DNA of 36,216 nt from Gammaproteobacteria bacterium (lineage in GTDB: Bacteria > Pseudomonadota > Gammaproteobacteria > JAADGQ01), in contig JAADGQ010000006.1 in assembly GCA_013152295.1 (NCBI GenBank), positions 1 through 36,216 of the forward strand, written 5' to 3'. A program made the position numbers and the translations under genes. The notes under the pieces were generated by a model that had not been told where the DNA came from, ran no database searches, and worked only from the letters and a program-made list of their open reading frames with translations. Numbering within the stretch: the first letter of the stretch is position 1; every line of letters begins with the position of its first letter. Positions 7,249 through 21,785 of the stretch are shown one piece after another.

Positions 7249-7373
7249 AGAGCATGTTGATACTGCTCTCCCGCCACCCCTCCCTAGGCGGGTATTCTGA
7301 CAGCCCGGTCCCCTAACCGGGCTGATTACTGCCCCGGCTCCTCTCTCCTCTAATCAAGCCGGGGCCTTTTTTT
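7249..7373 (+). ncRNA. Candidate small RNA or structured rpiA 3' UTR with four tandem hairpins
   Basis: Four hairpins with perfect stems follow one another. Hairpin 1: AGAGCA/TGCTCT, 7249-7269. Hairpin 2: CCCGCC/GGCGGG, 7270-7292. Hairpin 3: AGCCCGGT/ACCGGGCT, 7302-7323. Hairpin 4: GCCCCGGCT/AGCCGGGGC, 7331-7365, followed by seven T. The loops of hairpins 2-4 are almost pure pyrimidine (ACCCCTCCCTA, CCCCTA, and a 17-base loop beginning CCTCTCTCCTC). Such loops are complementary to Shine-Dalgarno sequences, as in C-rich-loop regulatory RNAs of other bacteria. A plain rpiA terminator would need only the last hairpin. No clear promoter of its own is seen, so it may be processed from the rpiA transcript. 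The structure is seen; the function is inferred. Confidence 0.5.
7331..7373 (+). terminator. Rho-independent terminator downstream of rpiA
   Basis: A perfect 9-bp GC-rich stem (GCCCCGGCT/AGCCGGGGC) with a 17-base pyrimidine-rich loop is followed by TTTTTTT at 7367-7373. It ends the rpiA transcript and the candidate small RNA. Confidence 0.9.
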
Positions 7374-7628: not shown

Positions 7629-10600
7629 ATGTTCGCAACCCCTTCGATTCATGCCGCCCCCCGCCAGCTCTATTCGAGCGCGCAGCGCAACCGCTCAACC
7701 CCATCACCAAAAACAATCGGGTTGCTGTTTGCTGCGTTACTGCTCTGTCAATTGCTGCAACTTTCGCCCGCGCTTGCGGTGCCCTTGAACTTAGGCGAGC
7801 GTTTTCTGGTCGATGGCGGCGGTTCGTTTGGTAGCAGCATGTCTATCGACGGCGATACCGCCATTGTCGGTGCACCTCAAGCGGATCGCGGTACTGGTTT
7901 TACTGACTCCGGCGCCGCCTATATTTACCAACGCAGCAACAGTAGTGCCAATCTTTGGTCAAAAAAGCAAAAGCTGATCACAACAGATGGACAATCGCTG
8001 GATTTTTTCGGCACAAGCGTTGCGATAGATGGCGACACCGCCGTGGTCGGCGCATGGGGTGATGATGACAACGGCAATGAATCAGGTTCTGCATATATAT
8101 TTGTGCGCAATGCCACCGGTTTCTGGACACAAGCCACCAAACTGACCGCAAGCGACGGCGCACAAAAAGATTTTTTTGGCAAAAGTGTCGCCATTAGTGG
8201 TGATACCGTACTGATCGGCGCCGATGGCGACGACGAGCAGGGCAATGTCGGCTCTGCGTACATATTCGTGCGCAATACAGATGACAGTTGGAGTCAGCAA
8301 GCCAAACTGATGGCCAGCGATGGCGCCGTGGATGACTTTTTTGGTGCCAGCGTTGCCATTAATGGTGACCAGGCATTTATCGGTGCTTATGGATCCGACA
8401 AAAATGGCGCCGAGAGTGGCGCTGTCTATCTATTCAAGCGCAACGCCACAAGCGGTGTCTGGGCTGAGCAATTCACCTTTCCATCACCCAACAGCGCTGC
8501 CGACGAACGCTTTGGGTTTAGCCTGTCGTTCGATGGCAATACCCTGTTGATCGGTGCCGATGGTAATAGCAGTAACGGCCAGAGCTCAGGAATCGCCTAT
8601 CTACTCACGCTATCAACCACCAATAATGTCTGGTCGTATGAGGCTGCTTTAGTGCCCCTCGACGGCAGGGCCAACGACCGTTTTGGCCACTCACTGTCGT
8701 TAAGTGGAAACAGGGCGCTCATCGGCACCGATCTTGGCAATTCAAGAATCCCTAAAAGCGGGGCTGCATACCTGTTTATCCGTAGCGCCTCGGGCGCTTG
8801 GGACAAACAGGGCAAATTATCCCCATTGGTAGAAAATGAAGAGCTCTCTTTTGGTCTTGCTGTCGCCATCGACGGACTCACCGCATTCGTTGGAGCACCC
8901 AGAAGTAACGACAACGGTCAGCCCAATTCGGGCTCACTGAACATCTTTCCCCTTATTGAAGATGATGGCGACGATGACGGTACGCTGGACTTTTCCGACA
9001 ACTGCCCGGCTATCGCCAACCCGGACCAAACGGATCTGGACGATGACGGCAAAGGCAACCCGTGTGATGACGACGATGACGGTGATGGCGTCATCGATAC
9101 ACGCGACCTGTTTCCGTTAGACAAAAATGAGGCTACAGATAACGATAACGATGGCATTGGTGACGAGGCCGACCCCGACGACGACAATGACACAATACCC
9201 GACAGCGTAGAGAGAAACCTCACCGGCCTTGACCCTTTGATAGATGATGCCAACGAAGACTTCGACAATGATGGCTACGACAATGTCACCGAATATCACG
9301 CAGGCACATCACCTGTTTTCGATGGCGCACACCCTGGTCTGGTTCGTGCGCCCCAATACAAAGTCTCCACAGCTAGCAGCAGCAACGAAGCCAACCTTGG
9401 GGCAAGTGTAGCGCTGTCCGGCGACACCGCACTCATCGGCAAACCGGGCGATGACAGTGGTCGTGGAGCCGCGCACATTTTTACACGTGATACAGAGAAT
9501 CGCTGGATCGAACAGACCAAACTCGTAGCTGTGGATGGCGACCAATCGGATAACTTCGGAGCAAGTGTTGCCATCAGTGGCAATCTTGCGCTGGTTGGCG
9601 CACCGGGCGACGATGACAGAGGTTCTGCTTCGGGGGCAGCCTATCTGTTTGAACGCAACACTCAAGGAGAGTGGGATCCTGTCGCAAAATTTTTTGCAGC
9701 AGATGGCGCAGCGGGGGATCGTTTCGGCACCAGCGTTGCCCTCTTCGGCAGCAGTGCACTCATTGGTGCCGATGGTGATGACAATAACGGAACTGATTCA
9801 GGCTCTGCCTACCTGATCCAGCGTCGTTCAGACGGAATATGGATTAACACAGCATGGTTTGCCGCCCCGGATGCCAATGCGGGAGCACGCTTTGGCAGTA
9901 GCGTCTCTCTGACGGGGGACACTATTTTAATTGGTGCTCCGGGTGCCAACAACATCGAACCTGGTACAGGCTCGGCTTATGTCTTTACCCGCCCCGCTCT
10001 GCTCTGGCTTCCACAAGCCAGGCTGTTTGCCCTGAACGGGATGACAGACGACAATTTTGGTGCCAGCGTCTTCCTGCGCGGAGAGACCGCAATAGTCGGT
10101 GCACCAGGCGACGATGACCAAGGCGAGGATTCTGGATCAGCATATGCCTTTAGCCGCGCCACCAACGGTATCTGGACGCTACAGCGCAAATGGTTAGCCG
10201 TTAACGGCGTCGCTGGAGAACGTTTTGGCAAAGCGGTCTCTATCCGTGGAGACCTAGCTTTAGTCGGCGCCGACGGCTACCCAAGAAGCCGCATCAGCTC
10301 ATCCAGCTCTGCTGATGGGGGTGCTGCCTATCTGTTCCAGCGTGACAGCACTGCACAGTGGAGCAAGCAGGGTCGCCTGCTCGCATGGGAGGGCGCTGAT
10401 GGCGACTTTTTCGGCGCAAGCGTCTCGGTATCAGCGACAACCGCGTTGATTGGCGCGCCAGGACAGGACGACTCTAAACGCAACGGTGGTGTCGCCTACT
10501 TCTTCGATTTTTCGCTGCAAGATGAAGACGACGATGGCGCCTTCGATTTCTCCGATAACTGTGTGGGCAAGAGCAACAATGATCAAGCCGATTTTGATGG

Positions 10601-13451
10601 CGACGGCATTGGCAACGCTTGCGACGACGATGACGATAACGATGGCGTGGCAGACGACGTTGATCTGCTTCCGCTCGACCCCACCGAATCAAATGACAGT
10701 GACAGAGACGGCGTTGGCGATAATGCAGACGGCGATGATGACAACGATGGCCTGCCCGACTCGATTGAAAACCGCTACGGCTGGAACCCGCTGGTAGCCG
10801 GCGAAGAGAGTGATGATAGTGATCTCGACGGCTACGATAATCTCACAGAGTTTCGCGCCGGAACCTCTCCCATTGATGCCGATGACACCCCTGCTCTGGT
10901 TCAGGCGCTGCACGACAAACTGCTCGCCACCGATGGGGCCAAAGGGGAAAATTTCGGCTACAGCGTCTCTATTTTTGGTAACCGCGCGCTGATTGGCGCG
11001 CGCAACGGGAAGGTCGATGGCAGCATAACAGGGGCAGCCTACATCTACAGACGCAATAGTAGCGGCAGATGGTTGCAGGAGGCCAAACTCACAGCCTCCG
11101 ACGGAAAAAAAGATGATGCATTTGGTATCAGCGTCTCCCTCTCGGGCGACACAGCACTGATCGGTGCACACCTCGCAGACAAGAGCCCAGACGATACCGA
11201 CACTGGCGCGGCTTACCTCTTTGTACGCAACAGCGATGGCAGCTGGACTCAACAAACCAAGCTCACTGCCGCCGATGGTTTGAGCAGAAACTTCTTTGGT
11301 TTTTCCGTTTCACTCTTTGAAGATCGCGCGCTAGTCGGTGCATACGGAGACGACAGCCGTGGCACCGAATCGGGAGCCGCTTATGTCTTTGCGCGCAGCG
11401 GCACGAGTTGGTCGCAGCAGGCCAAGTTAAGCCCGGAACTGGGCGTTGCTGGTGATCAATTCGGATATGCACTGTCGTTACATGGCACGCGCGCGTTGAT
11501 TGGCGCGTTCGGCGATGATCCTGTCAATAGAAGGGCCGTTGATGTCGGCTCCGCTTATATCTACGAACGGGTCGGGCCGGGTGATTGGCAACTGCAAACC
11601 AAATTGCTGGCCGACGACGGTGCCTCTAAAGACGCTTTTGGCATTAGCGTTTCACTCTCCACGGACAGCGCACTGATAGGCGCCACTCTGCGCGATATCG
11701 GGAATCCCCAATTAAAAGATGTTGGCGCTGCGTACCTTTTCACTCGCAATAGTGCGGGAAACTGGGTGCAACAACGCTTGTTCACCCCTCTCAACCCCAG
11801 TGAAAACGACCAGTTTGGCCACTCCGTCTCGTTGCACAGCGGCATCGCGCTGGTTGGCACAAACAGGACGATAGTTCCAAATGGCGTAATAACCACGGGT
11901 GCTGCGCATGTGTACGTTCGTGGTAGCGCGAGTAATTGGAGAAAATCTGGTCAACTACTCGCACGTGATGGCGAAGACGGCGATCTCTTTGGTACTGCTG
12001 TGGCAACCTTTAATGGTCGCTTCTTAGTTGGCGCGAAAAAAGAGGATGATAATAATGAGGATGCGGGGGCAGCCTACCTTTACGATCTGGCACTGACCGA
12101 CAGTGACGCAGACGGCGTGATGGATTTTTCCGACAACTGCACTGACACATCCAATAGCGATCAGGAGGACTTTGATCAGGATGGTGCGGGTGATGCGTGC
12201 GACCCGGACGATGACAACGATGGACTTCTCGATACCTGGGAAGAGCTCTATTTTAACTCGACGACCGGCGCAGACCCCGCTGTGGACAGCGATGGTGACG
12301 GTCTGGACAATCTCACCGAATCGACGATTAAAACCAATCCACGCAAAAGAGACACCGATGGCGATGGCGACAGCGATGGCGATGAGTACCGTTTCGAAAC
12401 CGATCCTCTCTCCAGCACCGACACGCTGGACGATCATCGCCCCTTTACCCCTGCTGTGTTGGCAATCAGCTCGCCTGTGCCTCTGACTTCGCTCGACTTC
12501 TCCTCCGTGGCGTTTGACGACCCCGACCCGGGCGACAGCTTCGACGCCAGCGAGTGGCAGATCAGCAGCGACGAGAGCTTCAGCGCTAACCGTATCGTCT
12601 TTACATCCGTGTTAGAGCGTGATGTCATCGAAGGTGGTGCTGAAGCGTTATTAAAGCTGGCAATACCGGCAGGCGTACTGCTCAAAGACAAAAACTACTG
12701 GACCCGTGTTCGCCACCGCGATGTTATTGGACTCTGGTCAGTGTGGTCCGCAGGTGCTGCCTATACCACGTTGAGCACCGATCCCGATGACATCGATGGA
12801 AATAACGTTCACGACGATTTTCAGCTCAACGAGTTTTCTGATGTTGATGGCAACGACATCGATGATCGGGATGAAAGGATTATGGTTCTGCGCGCCGCAC
12901 AAGCTGGGCTCGACAACAGCTCAGGCGCCATTGTCGGTGTTTCGGCAGACAATGGTGTGCTCAGCCGTCTGATGCCTATTGCTCACACGGAGTTTCCCGC
13001 GACGATCCAAAAGGATTTTAGCGCTGAATACGGCTGGTTTAATTTCCGTGTCGATGGGTTGTTGATCGACAAAAGTAATCCTGCCACCGTAGTTGTCACG
13101 TTCTATTTTCCAGAAAAACTGGATCTCCAGCTCAGATGGGTCAAGTACGATACGGCAACCCAGCAGATCAGCATTCTCTCTTCCGCTGAGTACGGCGAAA
13201 AAACCATTAAGGTGACACTGACCGATGGCGGTGATGGTGATAGCGATGGCGTCATCAATGGTGTCATTGTTGATCCGGGTGGCCCGTTAAGACCCACCGT
13301 CACTCCCTCCCCACCTGCTGGTGACTCATCAAGCGGGGGCGGCGGCGGCGGAGGGCGGCTATCACCGCTCGTGCTCTCTATGTTGCTGCTGCATGGGTTG
13401 TTTTTTGTGATGTGGCGTGGTTACCACCGCTCGCTGCGTATCAATGCCTGA
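7629..13451 (+). CDS. Giant FG-GAP repeat surface/secreted protein: three seven-bladed propellers, calcium-binding-type linkers, anchor-U domain
   Basis: The product is 1940 residues. A hydrophobic signal segment at about 28-50 ends in SPALA before VPLNL, so it is exported. It carries 21 repeats of about 55-60 residues of the FG-GAP_2/integrin-alpha type (pattern D-x-FG-x-SV-x-x-G-D-x-A-L-I-G-A-x-x-D-D-x-x-G-x-x-SG-x-AY-x-F-x-R, then W and KL). They form three blocks of exactly seven, at about residues 54-443, 568-964 and 1091-1485. Each block probably folds as one beta-propeller. Each is followed by an Asp-rich thrombospondin type 3-like segment with the pattern DNC...DQ-DFD-DG-GN-CD-DDD. 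A fibronectin-like stretch (about 1600-1715) and a choice-of-anchor U-like domain (about 1720-1885) follow. The tail is seven glycines at 1903-1909, a hydrophobic segment and basic residues, like a GlyGly-CTERM sorting signal. The ligand is unknown; adhesion is a guess. The gene stands alone. Confidence 0.88.
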   Translation: MFATPSIHAAPRQLYSSAQRNRSTPSPKTIGLLFAALLLCQLLQLSPALAVPLNLGERFLVDGGGSFGSSMSIDGDTAIVGAPQADRGTGFTDSGAAYIYQRSNSSANLWSKKQKLITTDGQSLDFFGTSVAIDGDTAVVGAWGDDDNGNESGSAYIFVRNATGFWTQATKLTASDGAQKDFFGKSVAISGDTVLIGADGDDEQGNVGSAYIFVRNTDDSWSQQAKLMASDGAVDDFFGASVAINGDQAFIGAYGSDKNGAESGAVYLFKRNATSGVWAEQFTFPSPNSAADERFGFSLSFDGNTLLIGADGNSSNGQSSGIAYLLTLSTTNNVWSYEAALVPLDGRANDRFGHSLSLSGNRALIGTDLGNSRIPKSGAAYLFIRSASGAWDKQGKLSPLVENEELSFGLAVAIDGLTAFVGAPRSNDNGQPNSGSLNIFPLIEDDGDDDGTLDFSDNCPAIANPDQTDLDDDGKGNPCDDDDDGDGVIDTRDLFPLDKNEATDNDNDGIGDEADPDDDNDTIPDSVERNLTGLDPLIDDANEDFDNDGYDNVTEYHAGTSPVFDGAHPGLVRAPQYKVSTASSSNEANLGASVALSGDTALIGKPGDDSGRGAAHIFTRDTENRWIEQTKLVAVDGDQSDNFGASVAISGNLALVGAPGDDDRGSASGAAYLFERNTQGEWDPVAKFFAADGAAGDRFGTSVALFGSSALIGADGDDNNGTDSGSAYLIQRRSDGIWINTAWFAAPDANAGARFGSSVSLTGDTILIGAPGANNIEPGTGSAYVFTRPALLWLPQARLFALNGMTDDNFGASVFLRGETAIVGAPGDDDQGEDSGSAYAFSRATNGIWTLQRKWLAVNGVAGERFGKAVSIRGDLALVGADGYPRSRISSSSSADGGAAYLFQRDSTAQWSKQGRLLAWEGADGDFFGASVSVSATTALIGAPGQDDSKRNGGVAYFFDFSLQDEDDDGAFDFSDNCVGKSNNDQADFDGDGIGNACDDDDDNDGVADDVDLLPLDPTESNDSDRDGVGDNADGDDDNDGLPDSIENRYGWNPLVAGEESDDSDLDGYDNLTEFRAGTSPIDADDTPALVQALHDKLLATDGAKGENFGYSVSIFGNRALIGARNGKVDGSITGAAYIYRRNSSGRWLQEAKLTASDGKKDDAFGISVSLSGDTALIGAHLADKSPDDTDTGAAYLFVRNSDGSWTQQTKLTAADGLSRNFFGFSVSLFEDRALVGAYGDDSRGTESGAAYVFARSGTSWSQQAKLSPELGVAGDQFGYALSLHGTRALIGAFGDDPVNRRAVDVGSAYIYERVGPGDWQLQTKLLADDGASKDAFGISVSLSTDSALIGATLRDIGNPQLKDVGAAYLFTRNSAGNWVQQRLFTPLNPSENDQFGHSVSLHSGIALVGTNRTIVPNGVITTGAAHVYVRGSASNWRKSGQLLARDGEDGDLFGTAVATFNGRFLVGAKKEDDNNEDAGAAYLYDLALTDSDADGVMDFSDNCTDTSNSDQEDFDQDGAGDACDPDDDNDGLLDTWEELYFNSTTGADPAVDSDGDGLDNLTESTIKTNPRKRDTDGDGDSDGDEYRFETDPLSSTDTLDDHRPFTPAVLAISSPVPLTSLDFSSVAFDDPDPGDSFDASEWQISSDESFSANRIVFTSVLERDVIEGGAEALLKLAIPAGVLLKDKNYWTRVRHRDVIGLWSVWSAGAAYTTLSTDPDDIDGNNVHDDFQLNEFSDVDGNDIDDRDERIMVLRAAQAGLDNSSGAIVGVSADNGVLSRLMPIAHTEFPATIQKDFSAEYGWFNFRVDGLLIDKSNPATVVVTFYFPEKLDLQLRWVKYDTATQQISILSSAEYGEKTIKVTLTDGGDGDSDGVINGVIVDPGGPLRPTVTPSPPAGDSSSGGGGGGGRLSPLVLSMLLLHGLFFVMWRGYHRSLRINA

Positions 13452-16839: not shown

Positions 16840-19263
<2,424 letters not shown>

Positions 19264-19333
19264 TTAAAGCTCCATATAGACAATTATTCAAAAACATAGA
19301 ACCTCTACTGAGGTCCATGCGCGAAGGGCGGCC

Positions 19334-19342
19334 ATTATAGCA
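19334..19342 (-). promoter_or_regulatory. Extended -10 promoter of gyrB overlapping the recF stop
   Basis: The minus strand reads TGCTATAAT, a perfect extended -10 element, with no good -35. It covers the recF stop codon, and transcription would start near 19327, about 63 bases before the gyrB ATG. Confidence 0.5.
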
Positions 19343-20423
19343 CCTCACTTACACACCCTCGTTCCACGTGAAACGTCTTTTTCTCTACAACGTTATCCAG
19401 AGAGAAATCATTGCGATCCGTTGAAGTTATGTACACCTGGGCACTCAAGTCAGCTAATAAGCTAAGCAGCCTATCTCGATGATGAGTATCGAGCTCTGAA
19501 GCAAACTCATCTATTAAAACAGTACAGCGAATAGAAGTATGCTTTTGATAATACGCTAGCTGAGCTAAGTAGAGAGAGTAGACAACTAACCTCAATTGAC
19601 CTGATGATAAAAACTCCTGGATTAACCGACCTTTAATTTTAAATTTCAGTTCAGCACGATGCACACCATCCTTCGTGTACCCCAAAGCAATATCCCTTGC
19701 CCTATTTCTAACCAAGCTTTCTTGGTAAGAATTCTGCTCTCCATCACTCCAACCTGGGAAATATTCCATACAGATCGGATCGCTATCCAATAACTTATGG
19801 AGAAAACATAACAGCAAAGGAAACATCTCTGATAAATAGTGGTTCCTCATACCATTAATTATGGTTGCTCCTTCAACCAACTCACAAACCCACACATCGT
19901 CCTCCAATTCAGAAAACTCCCGTCTTTTTAGCATCGCATTACGTTGCTTTAAGCTTCTCGAATAGCGCTGCCAAACCGATAGAAATCTGGGTTCCACGTG
20001 AAACACACCCCAATCTATAAACTCCCGTCTATAAGAGGGTCCTTTTGATAAGAGAAATTTGCTTTCTGGTGTAATTAATAGCGAGGGAAGATAATTTGCT
20101 AAATCGGAACGCCTATTTACCCTCTCCTCCGAAAAACGTACGCTTAATTTACTAGCCGTAAACTCTAAGCCTAATGGCGAAACCAACCCGCCGTTTTGTT
20201 CTACTCTGGAAAACAGTTGGAAGGAGTTCTCACCATGCTTAATAACATTTGAAAGAGAGTTACTACGAAAAGAACGGCCTAGGCTTAGCAGATAAATGGC
20301 TTCTAATAAGGTTGTTTTTCCACTGCCATTAAGCCCGTATATAACGTTAAAGCGAGGTGAAGGATTAATAGTGACGTGTTGAAAAGAACGAAAATTCTTC
20401 AGTTCAAGAAAGCAGAGACTCAT
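19335..20423 (-). CDS. recF: DNA replication/repair protein RecF
   Basis: The product is 362 residues, typical for RecF. It is an SMC-like ATPase with Walker A YGLNGSGKTTLLEAIY at about 29-45, a signature region around FLSSGQLRLVVYSLYLAQ and Walker B CTVLIDEFASELD near 300. It acts in the RecFOR pathway that loads RecA at gapped DNA. It lies 50 bases after dnaN and 71 before gyrB on the same strand. No strong ribosome-binding site is visible, as is common for recF. Two identical parS-like 14-mers lie within it, both encoding F-H-V-E. Confidence 0.96.
   Translation of the reverse strand: MSLCFLELKNFRSFQHVTINPSPRFNVIYGLNGSGKTTLLEAIYLLSLGRSFRSNSLSNVIKHGENSFQLFSRVEQNGGLVSPLGLEFTASKLSVRFSEERVNRRSDLANYLPSLLITPESKFLLSKGPSYRREFIDWGVFHVEPRFLSVWQRYSRSLKQRNAMLKRREFSELEDDVWVCELVEGATIINGMRNHYLSEMFPLLLCFLHKLLDSDPICMEYFPGWSDGEQNSYQESLVRNRARDIALGYTKDGVHRAELKFKIKGRLIQEFLSSGQLRLVVYSLYLAQLAYYQKHTSIRCTVLIDEFASELDTHHRDRLLSLLADLSAQVYITSTDRNDFSLDNVVEKKTFHVERGCVSEVL
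19361..19374. promoter_or_regulatory. parS-like ParB-binding site 1 (inside recF 3' end)
   Basis: GTTCCACGTGAAAC matches the core of the conserved chromosomal parS palindrome (TGTTTCACGTGAAACA; Pseudomonas form TGTTCCACGTGGAACA). It lies within the last codons of recF, and the identical 14-mer occurs again at 19991. parS sites cluster near the origin, as here. Confidence 0.75.
19991..20004. promoter_or_regulatory. parS-like ParB-binding site 2 (inside recF)
   Basis: The same GTTCCACGTGAAAC 14-mer as at 19361, in the same orientation and followed here by A, which extends the match to the parS consensus by one base. A 14-mer repeated exactly within 650 bases is unlikely by chance. Confidence 0.75.
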
Positions 20424-20473
20424 CGAGTGAGTAAAAAGTTGTGATTACACATAAGTAGAAAAATAAAATAGAG

Positions 20474-21589
20474 TTAGAACCTCATTGGCATAACTACATA
20501 GCGGGATACCATTTCACTATCTAACCCCTCAATCAAGCAGCTACTATTACCGTCTAATAACGTCAATTTTACCTTTTCAGCCTTGAGAGCTGCTAACGCA
20601 TCCAAAACATAATTGACATTAAAACCAATCTCTAAGCGATCTCCAGCATATTCTATCTCTAGAGTCTCTTCCGCCTGCTCCTGTTCTGGATTATGAGCGC
20701 TTATTGTCAATTCACCCTGAGAAAATTGAAACTGGACACCTCTTAACTTTTCACTCGATAGAATGGATGCTCGCTGCAACGCCTGGCGCAAAAGGTCACG
20801 TTCAACAATAACCACTTTATCCCCACCTTCCGGTATCACTCTTTGATAGTCAGGGAAACGGCCATCAATTAATTTCGACTTAAAACTGTATTCATCGGTA
20901 CTAATGCTAATGTGATTACCACTGATGGCAAGGTGCAATTCAATATCATCATCACCTACCAATAACCGCGATAACTCAGTAACACCCTTACGAGGAACAA
21001 TGATCTGAATAGAATCGCTGGAAATATCGATACTGCTGTCACATTCACTCAATGCTAAGCGGTGCCCATCCGTTGCGACTGCTCTGACAAAGTCTTTCTT
21101 AACCTCTAACAGCAAGCCATTCAGATAATAACGAACATCTTGGTGAGCGACGGCGAACAGGGTGCTGTCAATCAAAAACTTAAGCTTACGCTGAGAGAGT
21201 TGAAAAGTAAGGTTATCAGGACTCGTTTCAACGTTTGGAAAATCAGCAGCTGGTAGCGTAGATAGCGTAAAACGACTTCGACCTGACTGCATAGTAGCCT
21301 TACTAGCATCACAACTAAGTTTAATATCAGCACCTTCAGGTAGGGTGCGACATATATCTGAAAACTTTTTGGCAGGAATAGTTATCGATCCAGAGTCTGA
21401 TGAACCCTCTAACATCGTGGCATATGCAACCATCTCTATCTCCATATCTGTTGAAGTAACAGATAGTTGCTGATTTTCTATTTTCAGTAACAAATTAGAG
21501 AGAATAGGAATGGTTTGATGCCGTTCAACGACACCACCAACTAATTGCAAAGGTTTTAAAAGTTGGTTCCGGCTAATTAAACAAATCAT
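20474..21589 (-). CDS. dnaN: DNA polymerase III beta subunit (sliding clamp)
   Basis: The product is 371 residues. It has three repeated clamp folds, with the family N-terminus SRNQLLKPLQLVGGVVERHQTIPILSNLLL, the central ATDGHRLAL motif and the C-terminal YVVMPMRF, the hydrophobic-cleft end seen in nearly all DnaN. It forms a dimeric ring that tethers polymerase III to DNA. It lies between dnaA and recF. The ATG is supported by the family N-terminus; the ribosome-binding site is weak. The upstream gap of 196 bases holds DnaA boxes and may drive or repress dnaN. Confidence 0.97.
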   Translation of the reverse strand: MICLISRNQLLKPLQLVGGVVERHQTIPILSNLLLKIENQQLSVTSTDMEIEMVAYATMLEGSSDSGSITIPAKKFSDICRTLPEGADIKLSCDASKATMQSGRSRFTLSTLPAADFPNVETSPDNLTFQLSQRKLKFLIDSTLFAVAHQDVRYYLNGLLLEVKKDFVRAVATDGHRLALSECDSSIDISSDSIQIIVPRKGVTELSRLLVGDDDIELHLAISGNHISISTDEYSFKSKLIDGRFPDYQRVIPEGGDKVVIVERDLLRQALQRASILSSEKLRGVQFQFSQGELTISAHNPEQEQAEETLEIEYAGDRLEIGFNVNYVLDALAALKAEKVKLTLLDGNSSCLIEGLDSEMVSRYVVMPMRF

Positions 21590-21785
21590 ATATATATCTT
21601 TTTAATTACTATTATTAGTGTTGTTTCTAACTGTTAATAAGTCATTTTTTATTATTTAAAACAAACTCTTAACAGACTTCATATGTTGAGGATAGCTCGA
21701 TAACTAACAGCTGATAATTTATTCATAACCTGTGGATAATATTAAGCAATATTCGGTGACCCAAATTACCCACAGCTTATAAACA
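21590..21785. other. dnaA-dnaN intergenic region with DnaA boxes and AT-rich tract
   Basis: It contains one perfect DnaA box on the minus strand (TGTGGATAA at 21731-21739) and a one-mismatch box (TTACCCACA at 21766-21774). A poorer match (TTATTCATA at 21718-21726) lies beside them, next to a very AT-rich stretch at about 21590-21665 that could melt. It may be a replication origin element or DnaA-responsive control of dnaN. Confidence 0.5.

Follow-up and report, generated by a model that had tools for sequence, protein, structure and literature searches.

Bacterial integrin-type propellers were described by Chouhan et al. in 2011 as rings of seven FG-GAP-type blades in which an N-terminal strand closes the last blade (PMC3192720), and tandem pairs of such propellers were reported in some bacteria (PMC3192720). 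Bacterial proteins carrying one such propeller, or two, were already known. DxDxDG calcium loops lie in blades 4–7 of animal integrins and in every blade of the bacterial examples of that study (PMC3192720). No membrane anchor was found for the bacterial proteins, and they were placed in the cytoplasm (PMC3192720). A bacterial FG-GAP propeller working as a matrix adhesin is represented by Bap1/RbmC (PMC10102183), and VesB of Vibrio cholerae is anchored as a GlyGly-CTERM/rhombosortase substrate (PMC6219818). In literature searches, no paper describing a combination of FG-GAP repeats with thrombospondin type 3 (TSP3) repeats was found.

Here, we analyzed a gene that encodes such a combination. 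It lies in a 36,216-nucleotide stretch of a gammaproteobacterial genome (contig JAADGQ010000006.1, assembly GCA_013152295.1), referred to as the window, and its product consists of three seven-bladed propellers, each followed by a TSP3-like spacer, and a sorting-type tail. The architecture of propellers and spacers is well supported.

The propeller gene and its surroundings

The gene (7629..13451, plus strand) is a single uninterrupted reading frame of 1940 aa, as determined from the ORF and its translation. It is solitary, with rpiA and a terminator-like hairpin upstream and a LysR gene downstream on the opposite strand. The hairpin, which was read by eye and has a T run (7331..7373, plus strand), lies 3' of rpiA and sets it apart from the propeller gene; it is absent from the list of the automatic scan, probably due to its long loop. 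The base composition of the gene resembles that of its neighbours and thus gives no hint of recent import. A putative signal peptide with a long n-region was read from the sequence (7629..7778, plus strand): residues 30–50 are hydrophobic and are followed by ALA|VP, with likely cleavage after ALA (aa 50). An antisense ORF at 10689–11255 was rejected as a gene and explained as a shadow of the gene's own reading frame.

Two further observations concern the neighbouring genes. The rpiA gene (window:6446-7195) is listed from a TTG, and an ATG at about 6539 is its likely start. The segment window:16840-25793 is probably the replication origin region: it carries gyrB-recF-dnaN-dnaA together with yidC, and the GC skew reaches its minimum near 20–23 kb.

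Three blocks of seven FG-GAP repeats

Using hmmscan and a six-frame search, exactly 21 matches to FG-GAP_2 (PF14312) were found in the protein, each scoring 29.5–78 bits, and all 21 exceed the curated Pfam cut-off of 23 bits. The whole-protein score is 915 bits (E 2e-283), which places the match far beyond chance, and no FG-GAP_2 match occurs outside this gene in the rest of the 2.46-Mb, 181-contig assembly. The FG centres fall at aa 67, 127, 183, 238, 295, 352, and 408 in block 1; at aa 590, 643, 699, 755, 810, 866, and 928 in block 2; and at aa 1109, 1165, 1223, 1278, 1337, 1396, and 1454 in block 3. The count of 7 + 7 + 7 made by eye in the initial annotation is therefore borne out by the profile matches. 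The loss of FG that it described in the first blade of block 2 is also real, as this blade reads NLG at aa 589–591 (window 9393–9401), and the repeats stay out of the acidic spacers throughout.

The FG-GAP_2 matches and the AlphaFold2 models together define propeller 1 (aa 57–440; 7797..8948, plus strand; closing strand ERF, aa 57–59), propeller 2 (aa 575–962; 9351..10514, plus strand; first blade NLG, closing strand QYKV, aa 576–579), and propeller 3 (aa 1095–1488; 10911..12092, plus strand; closing strand within LHDKLLATDG), all with seven blades. In blocks 2 and 3, the closing strand comes immediately downstream of the preceding spacer. Two models were built, covering aa 48–965 (mean pLDDT 81.8) and aa 1085–1940 (mean pLDDT 76.7), with most blades at pLDDT 85–97. 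Each of the three blocks contains 28 strands, corresponding to seven four-stranded blades; one strand comes ahead of the first FG, while the last blade owns just three, so the early strand is predicted to be the one that closes the ring. Based on this strand order and the match to closed propellers, all three blocks are predicted to close at seven blades.

The models were compared with the PDB using Foldseek, and among the 50 matches listed per model almost all are integrin alpha chains, with a target-normalised TM (TMt) of up to 0.65. This agrees with the proposal that the blocks are three integrin-alpha-like propellers. Some integrin matches extended beyond the propeller and covered C-terminal domains as well (900+ columns, rmsd 18–26); these were rejected as evidence of thigh or calf domains. 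The Pfam/NCBIfam scans of the protein returned no family for thigh/calf domains, a beta subunit, or transmembrane signalling, and so the protein was not classed as an integrin. The pTM of the two models is 0.51–0.53, which means that they predict neither the placement of one head relative to the next nor a straight rod. The most variable parts of the blades include the loop leading into strand 1 and the one linking strand 2 to strand 3; both lie on one blade face and the core is kept, which is consistent with a putative binding face.

TSP3-like spacers between the propellers

Spacer 1 (aa 443–574; 8955..9350, plus strand; Cys459/Cys479), spacer 2 (aa 963–1094; 10515..10910, plus strand; Cys978/Cys998), and spacer 3 (aa 1489–1600; 12093..12428, plus strand; Cys1504/Cys1524) follow propellers 1, 2, and 3, respectively. 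The first two are TSP3-like, and the third begins as TSP3 and continues as a bacterial TSP3-like segment. Comparison with the type 3 repeats of thrombospondin-2 and COMP gave phmmer E values of 7e-21 and weaker, with a sizeable composition bias. The spacers have the TSP3 C-type motif pattern of a Cys pair with stacked DxDxDG, but Pfam TSP_3 scores 22.2 bits, just below the gathering cut-off of 25, and the spacers are therefore named TSP3-like. An Asp-rich spacer of this type had been proposed after each block. Its presence and type hold, whereas the proposed length of about 110–125 residues is a little short for the inner two, which are 132 aa each (52% identity). The third is likewise TSP3-like, but instead of simply closing its block it starts about 450 further residues that contain, besides a beta domain, a domain of the anchor type and a membrane tail, none of which had been described.

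The Dx[DN]xDG motifs number 18 in the spacers (six per spacer), with one more in the anchor-type domain and none inside the propeller blocks, whose blades lack the calcium loops of integrin-type propellers. The predicted calcium sites are thus located between the heads. The six Cys residues of the mature protein form one pair per spacer, 20 residues apart. From these motifs, the spacers probably bind calcium, and each Cys pair may form a disulphide. The spacers were modelled at low confidence, with a pLDDT of about 42–66 in spacer 1.

The C-terminal region and sorting genes

The last ~340 residues, comprising a beta domain, a choice-of-anchor U domain, and a GlyGly-CTERM-type tail, were overlooked in the initial annotation. 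The beta-rich domain (aa ~1606–1715; 12444..12773, plus strand) is seen as strands in the AlphaFold2 model, and no Pfam family matched within the C-terminal 344 aa. The domain at aa 1795–1886 (13011..13286, plus strand) belongs to the choice-of-anchor U family, NCBIfam NF041766, at 65–73 bits against a cut-off of 32. The tail (13335..13448, plus strand) consists of seven Gly (aa 1903–1909), a hydrophobic helix (~1911–1930), and a basic end in the sequence; in the model, the helix spans aa 1912–1939. TIGR03501 (GlyGly-CTERM) was not matched by this tail, and nothing was over its cut-off genome-wide. The four-block counterparts in two genomes of the same family (G001 and G002) pass TIGR03501, with 19.8 and 17.0 against 15.5. 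The window genome encodes a rhombosortase (TIGR03902, 160.6 bits against a cut-off of 84), the type II secretin GspD (584 bits), and also an exosortase. A second protein of this genome (contig C63; L057:2109-6320) combines TSP3 with choice-of-anchor U and a tail rich in Gly; at its front, it has Ig-like repeats where the propeller gene has propellers.

Rhombosortase was over the cut-off in 11 of 14 genomes tested. It is present in all eight with a Gly-run-tailed relative (G000, G001, G002, G024, G171, G038, G149, and G042) and in G129, whose relative has the same anchor domain and a Gly-poor tail. It was not over the cut-off in G105 and G185, where the related proteins clearly lack both the Gly-run tail and the anchor domain. 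The propeller protein of G120 runs off its contig end, and its tail is not covered. However, G077 and G140 have a rhombosortase and a propeller protein without a Gly-run tail, so that in this small sample the co-occurrence is loose and counts as support rather than proof. Because the tail falls short of the GlyGly-CTERM model and an exosortase is encoded as well, rhombosortase is a probable rather than a proven sorting enzyme. The tail probably fixes the protein to the cell surface.

Relatives with other block numbers

Homologues were searched for with a profile of the window protein's 21 repeats, and proteins with one, two, four, and seven blocks were found. The G001 and G002 proteins have 28 blades in four blocks; that of G129 has two blocks, with 15 matches, one blade apparently being split; and single seven-blade blocks occur in G042, G077, G105, G120, G149, L063, L064, and L068. 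The largest, from the MAG Gammaproteobacteria bacterium OFTM147 (L060), is 4789 aa long and has 49 FG-GAP_2 blades, arranged as seven seven-blade blocks. The blocks have seven blades throughout, which makes the propeller a real module. Spacers are 134–140 residues in the four- and two-block proteins and more variable in OFTM147 (102–469 residues). Of 369 genomes drawn from across the class, only 6 gave full-length or near-full-length matches to a profile of the spacer-to-propeller junction, so the architecture is rare and scattered. A single-protein search of genome contigs returned mostly TSP3-only proteins.

Some of these loci have features of their own. The seven-block gene of OFTM147 (L060:1613-15982) has extra domains repeated ahead of blocks 1 and 2, and its neighbour (17446–21690) encodes a metalloprotease-like N-terminus, TSP3 repeats, and one propeller. 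In two same-family genomes (L043:832-5963 and L044:3-2756), a protein with an OmpA-like C-terminus is encoded near the four-block propeller genes, and L043 also encodes a protein of 1310 aa that has 35 motifs of the DxDxDG type and a tail resembling GlyGly-CTERM; this neighbourhood is possibly a cluster of calcium-dependent surface proteins. A protein from Lysobacterales (L062:1837-5583) has 14 FG-GAP_2 blades in a single run, with no TSP3 spacers between them.

Origin of the blocks

The regular plan had been taken to suggest duplication of a whole propeller-spacer unit; in the form of a recent tandem duplication, we consider this unlikely. The identical length and 52% identity of spacers 1 and 2 favour it, but the blades lack same-position similarity: pairs at the same position across blocks are 39.7% alike and other pairs 40.4% (permutation p=0.74). 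In the maximum-likelihood tree of the blades, whose individual forks are weakly supported, position takes 15 changes, as low in 189 of 300 shuffles (no clustering), and block takes 7 changes, as low in 4 of 300 (weak clustering). Blade n therefore does not group across blocks in the alignment and tree, and the idea that the three units are recent copies of one was rejected for the blades. The weak clustering by block favours amplification or homogenisation within blocks instead.

As a control, orthologous blocks of G001 and G002 match by position at 71–74%. Whole-block duplication, which is a point in favour of the duplication proposal, was demonstrable by the same test in blocks 1–2 of OFTM147 (54% vs 42%, p<0.001), and the test thus has power; block 7 of that protein shows within-block amplification (69%). 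Both processes occur in the family. In the window protein, the trace left in the blades appears to be only that of within-block homogenisation, and only the spacers hint at an old duplication of the whole unit, whose signal in the blades would have been lost.

Working model and alternatives

On balance, we favour the reading that the protein is a rhombosortase-processed, surface-tethered, multi-headed, calcium-stiffened putative binding protein of an adhesin-like kind. The signal peptide would direct it to the periplasm, and the three integrin-alpha-type propellers are predicted to fold separately as seven-bladed rings, each closed by the strand N-terminal to its first blade. The TSP3-like spacers, each with six calcium motifs and one Cys pair, would hold the propellers apart and stiffen once filled with calcium outside the cell. 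By analogy with V. cholerae (PMC6219818), the tail may be cleaved, modified at its C-terminus, and retained at the surface. The heads may then bind a matrix or cell-surface ligand, and several heads on one rod could give avidity for cohesion or attachment. A putative rod with three binding heads, as proposed initially, is plausible.

Regarding the ligand, the main rival is polysaccharide binding by analogy with Bap1/RbmC, in which the propellers would bind exopolysaccharide made by the cell itself, making the protein a biofilm-matrix anchor and not a receptor for host surfaces or other cells. We regard this as possible though rather unlikely: the FG-GAP propellers of Bap1/RbmC also have a closing strand and bind VPS, with type II secretion as their export route (PMC10102183; PMC4551309), but they are eight-bladed, TSP3 spacers are not described for them, and no exopolysaccharide operon adjoins the propeller gene. 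The propellers might instead be mainly rigid beads without specific binding, in an architectural element such as a calcium-stiffened spacer or a surface-coat polymer. The regular unit size, the free variation of block number among relatives (1–7), and the near-constant spacer length in the closest relatives would suit such an element; however, the loops of one blade face differ in both length and sequence around a conserved core, as a binding face would, and we consider this explanation improbable. Least probable among these alternatives is processing of the tail by the genome's exosortase, or no processing, leaving the protein in a membrane or released. An exosortase is encoded and the tail scores below the GlyGly-CTERM cut-off, but the tail has no PEP-like motif and follows the Gly-run/hydrophobic/basic layout, and its same-family counterparts pass TIGR03501 beside a strong rhombosortase.

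Comparison with known systems

Like the propellers of Chouhan et al., those of the window protein have seven FG-GAP-type blades, the last closed by an N-terminal strand; unlike them, their blades carry no calcium motif, and the motifs are in the spacers instead. The window protein also differs in having three propellers (one to seven in its relatives) and a sorting-type tail, in contrast with the 2011 account, in which the bacterial propellers had no membrane anchor and a cytoplasmic placement (PMC3192720). The N-terminal propeller of integrin alpha provides its best structural matches (TMt up to 0.65), but identity is only 14–18%, and the window protein is without blade calcium loops, demonstrated thigh/calf domains, or a beta partner. 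Its spacers share the DNC...Q.D.D.DG.G..CD pattern and the stacked DxDxDG with the type 3 repeats of thrombospondin and COMP, although here they serve as spacers between propellers. Bap1/RbmC of V. cholerae are likewise secreted FG-GAP propeller adhesins (PMC10102183, PMC4551309), but with one eight-bladed propeller, beta-prism lectin domains, and no TSP3 spacers described. VesB (PMC6219818) resembles the window protein in its Gly/Ser-rich segment, hydrophobic segment, and basic end, and the window genome has both rhombosortase and type II secretion; VesB, however, is a protease, and the window tail does not reach TIGR03501.

What is new is that a propeller and its TSP3 spacer form a countable module (n = 1, 2, 3, 4, 7; seven blades throughout) and that the n = 3 and n = 4 proteins carry a surface-sorting-type tail at the C-terminal end. 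This natural series of block numbers is suited to testing how head number, spacer length, and calcium determine a bacterial adhesin's avidity and its reach. Tentatively, and with more doubt than for the working model, we propose a rare, patchy family of bacterial surface rods with integrin-alpha-type heads, TSP3 calcium links, and often a rhombosortase-type tail, in which the number of heads (1, 2, 3, 4, 7) differs from lineage to lineage by whole seven-blade units; such a tunable multivalent adhesin would parallel the integrin/thrombospondin matrices of animals.
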